Below the pieces are notes generated by a model. It was not told the DNA's origin. It saw only the letters and a list, made by a program, of their open reading frames with translations, and did no database searches. Shown in pieces: positions 2,996 to 54,297 of a stretch of DNA of 64,000 bases. The translations under genes and the position numbers were made by a program. Within the stretch, counting starts at the first letter, position 1, and each line of letters begins with the position of its first letter. Origin of the DNA: Carbonactinospora thermoautotrophica (lineage in GTDB: Bacteria; Actinomycetota; Actinomycetes; Streptomycetales; Carbonactinosporaceae); the NCBI RefSeq assembly GCF_001543895.1, contig NZ_JYIJ01000017.1:558001-622000 (forward strand). The letters run 5' to 3'.

Positions 2996-3170
2996 TCACA
3001 CCCGCTCCACCTCGATGGCGAGCACACCCAGGGCCTCCTTCTCCGGCGGGTAGATCCGGCGCATGCTCGGGTACCCGACCCGCACCTCCACGGTCTTGCG
3101 CCCCGAGGCGATCAGGTCGAAGTACTCCTTGTACAGCCACGTGTTCCGGGTCACCGGCTCGGTCTCACCC
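2996..3170 (-). pseudogene. ASCH-domain gene with an internal deletion
   Basis: The frame reads GETEPVTRNTWLYKEYFDLI, then a central block, then PPEKEALGVLAIEVERV and a stop. It is a close copy of the ASCH gene at 15012-15348 but lacks the middle ~160 bp. The junction falls exactly on a 9-bp word (plus strand GATCCGGCG) that occurs once at each side of the missing segment in the longer copy. This points to deletion between short direct repeats. The ATG present in the other copy is also lost. ASCH domains are beta-barrel RNA-binding modules; this copy is probably dead. Confidence 0.65.
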
Positions 3171-3333
3171 CTCGATCGGTTCTCCGTAAGGAGGACAGGG
3201 CGGTTGGGGTTGCGCGAATTGGGTAACGATTTGGTAAAGGCTAAATCATCTTTGCCACGGCCACTTCACCCACTCGCCATTGTCGGTTCTGGTGGTGACA
3301 CTGACTGTGCAGGGGGAAAGGAGGGAGGGCACG

Positions 3334-3552
3334 GTGACTCCCATCACAAGCGCGTTAGCGCAGGCGGAATGCGAGGACGACATCGTCATTCAGGTCACGC
3401 CGGAGGAGTACGACCGGGCCGTGCAGCATGCCCTCGACGAGTTGGGGATCACCTACGAGGAGCTTGAACGTCAGGCGAGAAACCGGGACTTCCAGTCCCA
3501 TCAAGCGCAGCTGCTGTGGGTCGCCATCGGAGGTCGAGACCGCGACTGCTGA
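3334..3552 (+). CDS. Hypothetical 72-residue protein, possible partner of the next gene
   Basis: The GTG start is chosen because a strong ribosome site (AAAGGAGGG, 3317-3325) sits 8 nt upstream. The acidic product (AECEDDIVIQVTPEEYDRAV, then LDELGITYEELERQARNRDF) is mostly helical and has no recognised domain. It ends 3 bp before a 219-residue gene, so the two are probably one operon. The pairing of a small acidic helical protein with a larger one is compatible with a toxin-antitoxin arrangement, but no family was recognised. Confidence 0.6.
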   Translation: MTPITSALAQAECEDDIVIQVTPEEYDRAVQHALDELGITYEELERQARNRDFQSHQAQLLWVAIGGRDRDC

Positions 3553-6935: not shown

Positions 6936-6983
6936 GTCGAGTGTGCGTGTCGTCACACGCGTGTGACGACACGCACACTCGAC
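6936..6983. promoter_or_regulatory. Perfect 48-bp palindrome in cassette R1
   Basis: Arms of 24 nt (6936-6959 and 6960-6983) are exact reverse complements with no spacer; the centre reads CACACGCGTGTG. It is identical at 44988-45035 and 54249-54296, and a diverged 30-bp form lies at 14947-14976. It starts one base after the T-run of the terminator. It could be a dyad operator or a second hairpin. Confidence 0.85.
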
Positions 6984-51473: not shown

Positions 51474-51556
51474 TGCCGGTCCCTGGTGTCGAGCCGTAAG
51501 CCGTAGAGTGGGGTTCCCGTAAGGTTCTCCCCCGCGCTGGCTTGAGGAGGCCTTGG

Positions 51557-52126
51557 ATGTTCGCGATGCGCTTGGCCGTGGCGGCGGATGCGCCTGCGGT
51601 CGCGGCCATGATCCACGCCCGCTGCACTTGGCTGGAGGAGCGCGGCCTGCCGAGCTGGCGTGACAGCGTGGATGAGCTGGCTGCGCAGGCGGAGAACCCG
51701 GACGGCTCCATGTGGGTGTTGGAGGACGATGGCGGCCGGATCGTGGGCTGTACCACGGTTCAGGAGGAGACGCCGCCGTGGGGCTGGACGCCGGAGGAAC
51801 TGGCCGAACCCGCGCACTACTTGTACACGACGGTCACTGATCCGGCGTATCGGGCGTTCAAGCCCGGGACTTTGATCGCGTGGTGGGCGGTGGACCGGGC
51901 GGCGCAGGTCGGCAAGAGCTGGGTGCGCCGGGGCTGCTTTTTCCCCGGCCTGGTGCGCTACTACGAGCGTCAGGGGTTCACGCTGTTCCACGAGGTGCAG
52001 CGCACCAGGCGCCGGGTGTACCTGATGGGGCGCCGCGCCGAGCGGATCGCGGGCCTGGAGCGGATGTTCGCCGACCCTACGGATCCGGCTGCTGCGGCGG
52101 CGTTGACGGCTGTAGCGCGGTTGTGA
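51557..52126 (+). CDS. GNAT-family N-acetyltransferase
   Basis: The 189-residue protein starts at ATG 51557, with GAGGAGG 6 nt upstream. The N-terminus MFAMRLAVAADAPAVAAMIH is a typical GNAT start. SMWVLEDDGGRIVGCTTVQE is the central strand pair, and RGCFFPGLVRYYERQGFTLF is the C-terminal part. It converges on the asparagine-synthetase-like gene with 53 bp between stops. Acetyltransferases occur in albusnodin-type lasso clusters, so a role in modifying a peptide is possible but not shown. Confidence 0.8.
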   Translation: MFAMRLAVAADAPAVAAMIHARCTWLEERGLPSWRDSVDELAAQAENPDGSMWVLEDDGGRIVGCTTVQEETPPWGWTPEELAEPAHYLYTTVTDPAYRAFKPGTLIAWWAVDRAAQVGKSWVRRGCFFPGLVRYYERQGFTLFHEVQRTRRRVYLMGRRAERIAGLERMFADPTDPAAAAALTAVARL

Positions 52127-52179: not shown

Positions 52180-53745
52180 CTACAGGAACGCCTGGGTTGC
52201 GAGGTGGAGGTGGATGACCTCCAGAAGCTTGGCGTCGTCGTCCTCGCTGTAGCGGCCGTCGCGGACGCGTGTCACCGCTTGGCGCAGGCCGTCGGGGTCC
52301 ACCAGCCCCGCGTCGAACAGGGCGGACCCCTCGCGCAGCATCCGGGCGAACAGCGGCTGGGCGTGGGTGGTCAACGTGTGCTGGACGACCTCGGCGAAGG
52401 ATTCGCGCTCCACCGGCTGGGTGACGTCGGTGCTCAGGCCGAGCGAGGCGAGCTGGCGCCGCTGAAGCTGCTTGAGTTCCCGCCAGTGCATGGGCAGCCA
52501 CTCGCCGAGCTGGACCATCCCAGGATCGGTGAATGGGTGTACAGGCCAGATACCCGCACGTAGCAGGACAGGTGCTGCGGTCTCCAGGGCCAGCAGGGTC
52601 ATGGAGTTGACGACGGCCGGGGGTGCGATGGCGTCGTCCGCGTACTCCAGCGCCTGCCGGGCGCGCTCACCGATCCACGGCAGCGCATCGGTGATCTCGC
52701 CCATGGACCGGTGCGGGTACTCCTCCTGGGACAGTGCCACCATCTCATCGCCGCCGAGCCCGGTGACCACCGCACGTACCCCGTGGCCGGCGAGGATTCC
52801 GGCCAGGCGGGTGAACGGCCAGTGCAGCGGCTCCTCGTAAGGGCTGATCAGCTCCCCGCGTACCCGGGCGCAGTCCGGGTGCAGGGGCGCGTCCTGCATG
52901 GCGTCGACAAGGTCGTCCCGCTCGCCGAACGGCAGGATGGTGCGCATCTCCTTGCGTCGACGAATCTGCTGGGCACGGCCGGGGCCGCCGATCAGGAGCG
53001 CAGCGGTGTGGACCTGACCGGGGTAGCGTTGCGCGGCGCGGGTGGCCACGGTCCCGGAGTCAAAACCTCCGGTGAGGTGGAAGACGGTGCTCGCGAGGTC
53101 GAGGGGGCGCAGGTCCAAGGCGTTGTCGATCGCCTGAACGAAGGCGCCCAGCACGTCGGCGTCGGGCGCGAGTTTCCGCGGGGTGCCGTGGAGCGCTGGT
53201 TCGGGGTAATGCAGGTGAAGATGGCCGCCGTAGAAGGCGGTGGCGCGCTCGGTGAGCCGGTGAACTCCCCGAAACAGGGTCTCGCTGCCGTAGCGGGGGC
53301 GATAGATCAGCAGGCGGGCGGCTTCCCGGGCGCACAGGCCGGTGATGTGGTTTCGCAGATCAGCCATGTCCCACGAGCCGTACAGGCTGCTCGCGTCATG
53401 GGCGAGGTACAGCGGGGCGATGCCGCACGCGCCGGCGGTGACGCGCACCGGCATCCGTGGTGCGGTCTCCACGAGCACGTAGTCGACCGGCCATTGGGCG
53501 GCGAGGGCCCGGGCGCGGTCGTAGTCGGCAGCAGACAGCGGGCGCGTGGCTGGATCGCAGGGCGGACGCCCCGCGACGCGTTCCCGAAAGACCAGCAGGG
53601 TCCGAGTGCCGTCGGTGACGGCTAAGTGTTCCAGCATCGGGTGCTGGAACGGGGTGATCTCGCTTGAGCGGCCGGCTGTGGTGTAGCGAGTACCGTCCCA
53701 GCTCCAGGTGGTGTCCGCGTACGGGGTCAGGCGCAGTTTGATCAC
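52180..53745 (-). CDS. Asparagine-synthetase-like (lasso cyclase-type) enzyme
   Basis: The protein has 521 residues from GTG 53745. It has the class II fold without the N-terminal nucleophilic Cys, so it cannot use glutamine in the normal way. The ATP-pyrophosphatase site is TVFHLTGGFDSGTVATRAAQ (TGGFDS in place of SGGxDS), and RAVVTGLGGDEMVALSQEEY is the second ATP segment. This combination is seen in McjC-type lasso peptide cyclases and other amide-forming tailoring enzymes. It follows a 53-codon ORF and a 14-bp hairpin. No McjB-type leader peptidase or RRE gene was seen nearby. Confidence 0.82.
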   Translation of the reverse strand: MIKLRLTPYADTTWSWDGTRYTTAGRSSEITPFQHPMLEHLAVTDGTRTLLVFRERVAGRPPCDPATRPLSAADYDRARALAAQWPVDYVLVETAPRMPVRVTAGACGIAPLYLAHDASSLYGSWDMADLRNHITGLCAREAARLLIYRPRYGSETLFRGVHRLTERATAFYGGHLHLHYPEPALHGTPRKLAPDADVLGAFVQAIDNALDLRPLDLASTVFHLTGGFDSGTVATRAAQRYPGQVHTAALLIGGPGRAQQIRRRKEMRTILPFGERDDLVDAMQDAPLHPDCARVRGELISPYEEPLHWPFTRLAGILAGHGVRAVVTGLGGDEMVALSQEEYPHRSMGEITDALPWIGERARQALEYADDAIAPPAVVNSMTLLALETAAPVLLRAGIWPVHPFTDPGMVQLGEWLPMHWRELKQLQRRQLASLGLSTDVTQPVERESFAEVVQHTLTTHAQPLFARMLREGSALFDAGLVDPDGLRQAVTRVRDGRYSEDDDAKLLEVIHLHLATQAFL

Positions 53746-53763
53746 GGGAATCCTCCGCTCGCA

Positions 53764-53802
53764 GCCGGGGGTACGGCCCTGGCCGCGAGCCGTACCCCCG
53801 GC
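53764..53802 (-). terminator. Hairpin between the candidate precursor and the cyclase gene
   Basis: A perfect 14-bp stem (53764-53777 with 53789-53802) with an 11-nt loop lies in the 67-bp gap. Partial terminators at this place are common in peptide clusters, where they keep precursor mRNA in excess over enzyme mRNA. Confidence 0.65.
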
Positions 53803-53812
53803 AGCCGACGTT

Positions 53813-53974
53813 TCAGATGGCCGTGGTGTCGTACGTCTTGGCGGCGTCGGAGGAGCCCGCCTTCTTCTTGTACTCGTGACTCTGGGCCGGGCTCTGAATC
53901 CTGTGTCGGGTCTCGGTCACGAACAGGTCCTCGTAGGACGCGGTGGGCGTCTGCGGGGGCAGGAAGTCGTCCAT
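53813..53974 (-). CDS. Candidate RiPP precursor peptide, 53 residues
   Basis: The ATG at 53974 follows GGAGGGG by 5 nt. The product is MDDFLPPQTPTASYEDLFVT, then ETRHRIQSPAQSHEYKKKAG, then SSDAAKTYDTTAI. An acidic, hydrophobic first half could be a leader; the KKK stretch could mark a cleavage zone, and the Thr/Asp/Ser-rich end could be the core. It does not show the usual lasso leader pattern (YxxPxL...G...T). Size, strong ribosome site, following hairpin and adjacent cyclase are the evidence. Confidence 0.6.
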   Translation of the reverse strand: MDDFLPPQTPTASYEDLFVTETRHRIQSPAQSHEYKKKAGSSDAAKTYDTTAI

Positions 53975-54209: not shown

Positions 54210-54248
54210 GGCTCCGGTGGCGTCGGCTCCGGCCGCGTCGCCACCCCC

Positions 54249-54296
54249 GTCGAGTGTGCGTGTCGTCACACGCGTGTGACGACACGCACACTCGAC
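54249..54296. promoter_or_regulatory. Perfect 48-bp palindrome in cassette R3
   Basis: It is identical to the palindromes at 6936-6983 and 44988-45035; arms are 54249-54272 and 54273-54296. Confidence 0.85.
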
Positions 54297-54297
54297 G

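Follow-up and report, generated by a model that had tools for sequence, protein, structure and literature searches.

The window, i.e., the whole analysed stretch of 64,000 nucleotides of Carbonactinospora thermoautotrophica DNA, contains a putative compact RiPP cluster, consisting of a precursor gene, a hairpin, a cyclase gene, and a gene of a presumed tailoring acetyltransferase. The features are located as follows:

51542..52126 (+): GNAT acetyltransferase gene (Pfam PF00583), convergent with the cyclase gene; likely start ATG 51557 with a Shine-Dalgarno sequence
52180..53745 (-): AsnS/beta-lactam-synthetase-like cyclase gene, 521 aa, GTG start
53756..53810 (-): intergenic hairpin with a 16-bp core stem, between precursor and cyclase genes
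53813..53974 (-): precursor peptide gene, 53 aa, MDDFLPPQTPTASYEDLFVTETRHRIQSPAQSHEYKKKAGSSDAAKTYDTTAI, Shine-Dalgarno sequence GGAGGGG
53846..53866 (-): codons K37-D43 (KKAGSSD), proposed 7-residue ring, based on Lys-x5-Asp conservation; the bond itself is putative

The ribosome-binding site of the 53-residue ORF is as strong as the initial annotation described, with GGAGGGG placed 4 nt 5′ of the ATG (GGAGGGGAAAC-ATG). Wherever a homologous cyclase is intact and its 5′ flank can be read, a homologous small ORF immediately precedes it; for L006, the closest relative, this flank is masked by N. The close cyclase homologs, 62–80% identical and present in Streptomyces and one Frankia MAG, are preceded by a shared peptide with the leader LF(T)TKxxRR(V/I)Q followed by HEYKKxxGSSDxxxTYDT. 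The reading frame is intact in the relatives, and the pN/pS of the precursor (0.37 overall and 0.20 in the C-terminal part, calculated for 11 sequences) points to purifying selection that is strongest towards the C-terminus. The small ORFs upstream of more distant cyclase homologs are also homologous to the window ORF. An HMM built solely from window-clade precursors was run on 4535 ORFs: ranks 1–6 went to the ORFs next to the cyclases of six divergent loci and, after those six had been added, the adjacent ORFs of the clades with an ABC transporter or methyltransferase gene took ranks 7 to 11, with weak scores. For a second actinobacterial family, a precursor was detected by HMM beside the cyclase in 25 of 27 loci, the cyclase ORFs of the other two being partial. 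No NCBIfam match, including to the curated lasso and albusnodin precursor models, was obtained for eight family precursors. Comparison of these sequences shows the 53-aa ORF as a genuine precursor gene, homologous across actinobacterial clades, and, as is expected of a RiPP, this conserved precursor gene is tied to a modifying enzyme. One locus (L138, about 3093–3391) has a tandem pair of diverged precursors, RHDYKKKAGSSDTAHTQDEIIT and RYEHKKFAGTSDTAHTKDE, ahead of a single cyclase.

The only residue pair present at fixed spacing in all of the 26 representative precursors is Lys-x5-Asp. It occurs in 26/26, including five proteobacterial groups, and the precursors of L157, L162–L165, and L167 are less independent examples, since their ORFs are unannotated and were picked from the upstream sequence. 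Shuffled peptides contained the pair in 5.7 ± 2.1 of 26 cases, with a maximum of 13 (2000 shuffles); for the five proteobacterial groups alone, shuffling gave a chance of about 2.5e-4. Leaders and tails vary between groups despite the constant pair, which reads KKAGSSD in the window and, in other precursors, KIPGSSD, KPQESSD, KMPGGGD, KGGKPGD (Rhizobium), KRRLPGD (Mesorhizobium), KPYLGDD (Xanthomonas), KGPFPSD (Bradyrhizobium), or KFLVRGD (Rhizobium NLR16a, with a precursor of 31 aa, MKVRLIKLNAPRATGRATKFLVRGDSARYRY). Across a larger set (58 sequences), the invariant Lys can be preceded by K, T, E, D, H, or R, i.e., this position is not conserved; the lone non-Lys residue at −6 in this set (L101, which reads YKKEEGDSD) is an anchoring artefact. 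In the same set, a second Asp at +6 (D49 in the window) is nearly invariant in actinobacterial precursors and might itself serve as the acceptor, or else mark the site of a second crosslink. The Lys is also kept in clades in which a methyltransferase or ABC gene replaces GNAT and, being kept whatever the tailoring gene, it therefore belongs with the shared cyclase. Two other explanations of this residue were considered. Acetylation by GNAT as its only role is disfavoured by the persistence of Lys in clades without GNAT, and cleavage after Lys, giving a 6-residue ring, is disfavoured by the Pro that follows Lys in KPSGNGD, KPQESSD, KPAGTED, and KPYLGDD.

The cyclase has a predicted asparagine-synthetase fold and no functional glutaminase site. 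Unlike asparagine synthetase B, it lacks the N-terminal nucleophile Cys (no Cys is present at position 2, so the amidotransferase Cys is indeed missing, as had been annotated) and fails the cut-off of the asparagine synthase model TIGR01536 (20 bits vs. 267). The cyclase passes Pfam Asn_synthase PF00733 (30 bits, cut-off 21) and fails the albusnodin/ikarugamycin cyclase model NF033561 (27.5 bits, cut-off 300); its relatives are below the NF033535 cut-off. In a Foldseek search with the AlphaFold2 model (pLDDT 92.9), beta-lactam synthetase (E 7e-17) came out as the closest solved fold, together with asparagine synthetase B (E 2.5e-13) and carbapenam synthetase, and hydroxyamidotransferase TsnB9 was also matched; identity to the beta-lactam and carbapenam synthetases is about 12–17%. 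A sequence-profile search of the PDB gave a single match, again beta-lactam synthetase, an enzyme that forms an amide within one molecule. Beta-lactam and carbapenam synthetases are AsnS-like and close an intramolecular amide, as is proposed here; however, they act on small molecules, whereas the substrate here would be a ribosomal peptide. An alignment of 14 cyclases shows conservation of [ST]GGxDS and GxGGDE, the motifs of the ATP site. The replacement of SGGxDS by TGGFDS, to which the initial annotation drew attention, is present in the window cyclase, but it had to be rejected as a mark of the class: TGG occurs in only part of the window's own clade, and SGGxDS is found in relatives whose set of genes is the same. 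In lasso cyclases, the Lys of the R-R-x-K motif is catalytic; in the family cyclases, this position aligns with Arg or Pro, which suggests that the catalytic details differ. In a tree with 8 lasso-type reference cyclases, the family cyclases (46/46) group together with support of 0.971, to the exclusion of the references. A single 489-aa ORF on a short contig (L102 5546–7012, minus strand) matches both a cyclase stretch (profile 96–371) and GNAT and is possibly a deletion fusion.

It is proposed that these genes represent a stand-alone ATP-dependent macrolactam-forming RiPP family, in which a Lys side chain is probably joined to Asp without leader removal. According to this proposal, the cyclase would adenylate the side-chain carboxylate of Asp43 on the full-length precursor, and the side-chain amine of Lys37 would attack it, giving a 7-residue Lys–Asp macrolactam. 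The product would have a short C-terminal tail, AAKTYDTTAI, with the leader still attached, and GNAT might then acetylate a product amine, for maturation or self-protection. No lasso-type leader peptidase or RRE would be needed, because a side chain, and not a new N-terminus, would close the ring. A bond from the Lys side chain to Asp on a leader-bearing precursor is suggested by the invariance of Lys, the variability of the preceding residue, the lack of B2 (PF13471) in 18 of the 28 genomes carrying the cluster, and the kinship of the enzyme to intramolecular amide synthetases. By atom count, such a ring has 26 members (7 from Lys, three from each of five residues, and 4 from Asp). The G1–E8 ring of microcin J25 also has 26 atoms (3 + 18 + 5) and, because of this equal size, threading of the tail is conceivable. 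We lean, less firmly, towards a separate RiPP class that is found in Actinomycetota as well as Proteobacteria (legume symbionts among them) and in which a stand-alone AsnS-fold enzyme joins a Lys side chain to the Asp six residues on and the product could be a threaded lariat. That the ORF is the precursor of a different amide-forming RiPP class, as had been supposed from the window alone, is strongly supported by the comparative evidence. The expectation that the product is a C-terminal segment minus water has to be modified: with a Lys side-chain bond, the water loss would fall on the whole precursor, and a cleaved segment is not necessary.

The cluster appears, on comparison of its genes, to work like lasso cyclisation and to be related to it. 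An AsnS-fold ATP-dependent cyclase, a short upstream precursor gene, a macrolactam to Asp (proposed here), and the order of ring and then tail are shared with lasso peptides; the cluster differs in the absence of a B protease and RRE, in the invariant Lys as the proposed nucleophile, and in its separate cyclase clade. Three defining features of lasso systems, B2, B1/RRE, and clade membership, were tested and are lacking, and the cluster is therefore not classed with them. No PqqD or Transglut_core3 domain (lasso B1/B2) occurs anywhere in the 64-kb window, so that the noted absence of an adjacent McjB/RRE gene holds for a much larger distance. Annotated B2 lies beside or close to the cyclase in 6/6 plasmid lasso-type reference loci, and Lys-x5-Asp is absent from five precursors of lasso-type loci. 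The only B2 of the genome is found in a separate lasso-type locus with a cyclase, PqqD, and B2 (contig C18:347652–349613; L001, L052, L148). A protein reading like a PIMT-type methyltransferase is encoded downstream of that locus, as in aspartimide lasso peptides. A trans-acting lasso B2 is unlikely as a rule, given the 18/28 host genomes without one, though the window genome has B2 in its lasso-type locus.

A non-canonical lasso pathway might nevertheless operate, in which an unlinked housekeeping protease cuts before Lys37, the α-amine of Lys37 is joined to Asp43, and AAKTYDTTAI is the threaded tail. Homology of the window cyclase to lasso C proteins is evident from its comparison with the lasso-type cyclase on C18 (hhalign, E 2.8e-16), a ring followed by a 6–12-residue tail resembles lasso cores, and lasso rings of 7 residues are known; the xanthomonins belong to this type, according to a reference in PMC13352647. 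However, closure by an α-amine needs no Lys, yet Lys is found in every precursor, the residue before it is unconserved, unlike a cleavage site, no B protein is adjacent and B2 is missing from most of the carrier genomes, and the family cyclases are in a clade separate from the reference cyclases. We consider this pathway, the chief alternative, unlikely. It is improbable to a higher degree that no macrocycle is formed at all, i.e., that Asp43 (or Asp49) is adenylated and then reacts with ammonia or a small amine, or with a backbone amide to give an aspartimide, Lys37 being required for recognition only. AsnS-fold enzymes do use diverse amines, and the structural match to TsnB9 fits such a reaction, but the glutaminase Cys is absent and an invariant Lys at exact spacing in very different sequences fits a nucleophile better than a recognition residue.

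The reading of a Lys side-chain macrolactam can also be set against other known systems. Graspetides share a Lys–Asp side-chain-to-side-chain macrolactam (proposed here), but their macrocyclase is an ATP-grasp ligase (PMC8939145), whereas the Pfam assignment and predicted fold of the window enzyme point to the AsnS/beta-lactam synthetase fold. An acetyltransferase gene is also present in albusnodin, triculamin, and lariocidin clusters; the albusnodin and lariocidin clusters contain B proteins (PMC9266682; PMC11451635), and none is present in the window cluster. The parallel with albusnodin drawn in the initial annotation did not survive: it appears superficial, since an annotated albusnodin-family locus (L169) has B2, a GNAT without a meaningful BLASTP match to the window GNAT, and a precursor without Lys-x5-Asp. 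Streptomyces triculaminicus carries the cluster (L008). Identity with the triculamin cluster was rejected, as the L008 precursor is unlike the triculamin core, SKKSKPGDGIRGKGVRG.

The convergent GNAT gene of the window was correctly noted, and throughout the window's clade a GNAT gene lies next to that of the cyclase, in either orientation, with the exceptions of L020 (broken cyclase frame) and L105 (divergent). It is present in 27/27 loci of the second actinobacterial family; two other clades have a methyltransferase or ABC transporter in its place, and some rhizobial clades have a phosphotransferase, with or without GNAT. In L155, L162, and L164 (Mesorhizobium, Rhizobium), the cyclase is followed by a phosphotransferase and GNAT. 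These rhizobial GNATs gave no BLASTP alignment to the window GNAT, which suggests that the modifying enzymes have been recruited repeatedly. No conserved transporter was found in the GNAT clade.

A search with the 14-cyclase alignment found family members in 14/395 genomes of the class and 38/394 of the order, and a search with a larger cyclase alignment found them in 28/299 genomes of another actinobacterial family. The family is patchy, because only 2/397 genomes of a phylum-wide sample are carriers. Searches of plasmids extended it to Rhizobium, Bradyrhizobium, Mesorhizobium, Aminobacter, and Xanthomonas; the Mesorhizobium cyclase had no match in a search against phages. In R. leguminosarum relatives, the gene order is AHL synthase, a 52-aa ORF, and the cyclase, with nifHDK next in some plasmids. 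The cyclase annotated on pRL10 of R. johnstonii 3841 is shorter; strain WSM4643 has a full-length copy. In four rhizobial plasmid loci (L152, L153, L158, L160), an AHL synthase gene is immediately followed by a small ORF and an AsnS-like gene; two of these loci, L153 and L158, have nifHDK downstream of the pair. This placement of the pair, behind the gene for AHL synthase and on some plasmids directly ahead of nifH, points to a candidate quorum-controlled peptide in legume symbionts, with a possible role in symbiosis. A survey published in 2026 on the quorum-sensing loci of Rhizobium (PMC13133039) nowhere uses the word “asparagine.” Literature searches found no description of the cyclase/Lys-x5-Asp family, but subscription papers were mostly outside these searches, so an earlier description is possible. 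If the proposed mechanism is correct, then lasso-type cyclases have relatives working without a protease or RRE and using a different nucleophile, and a two-gene system would make the needs of lasso cyclases for ring closure (and threading) directly testable. The combination of a cyclase with a Lys-x5-Asp small ORF also gives a simple mining rule for clusters that are at present annotated only as “asparagine synthase-related” and “hypothetical.”

The hairpin described before the cyclase gene is borne out by folding of the intergenic sequence 53746–53812, with an energy of −46 kcal/mol (z=−4.1). A strong stem is present between precursor and cyclase in 14/14 loci folded and its sequence differs between loci, a pattern in keeping with the likely role of the hairpin in setting the ratio of precursor to enzyme. 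The strong hairpin in every locus folded would also fit a small ORF that is a regulatory leader peptide or attenuator of the cyclase gene and not a substrate, but this is very improbable in view of conservation at the protein level, with purifying selection concentrated C-terminally, residues conserved across phyla, and the tandem diverged precursor copies in L138. Upstream of the precursor gene, at 54248–54297 of the window, lies a perfect 50-bp palindrome, CGTCGAGTGTGCGTGTCGTCACACGCGTGTGACGACACGCACACTCGACG, which is also found near 6947 and 44999. Its 42-bp core has 27 genomic occurrences at ≤3 mismatches; in several of them the changes are symmetric, i.e., compensated in the other arm, and by its sequence the palindrome resembles a dispersed palindromic element.
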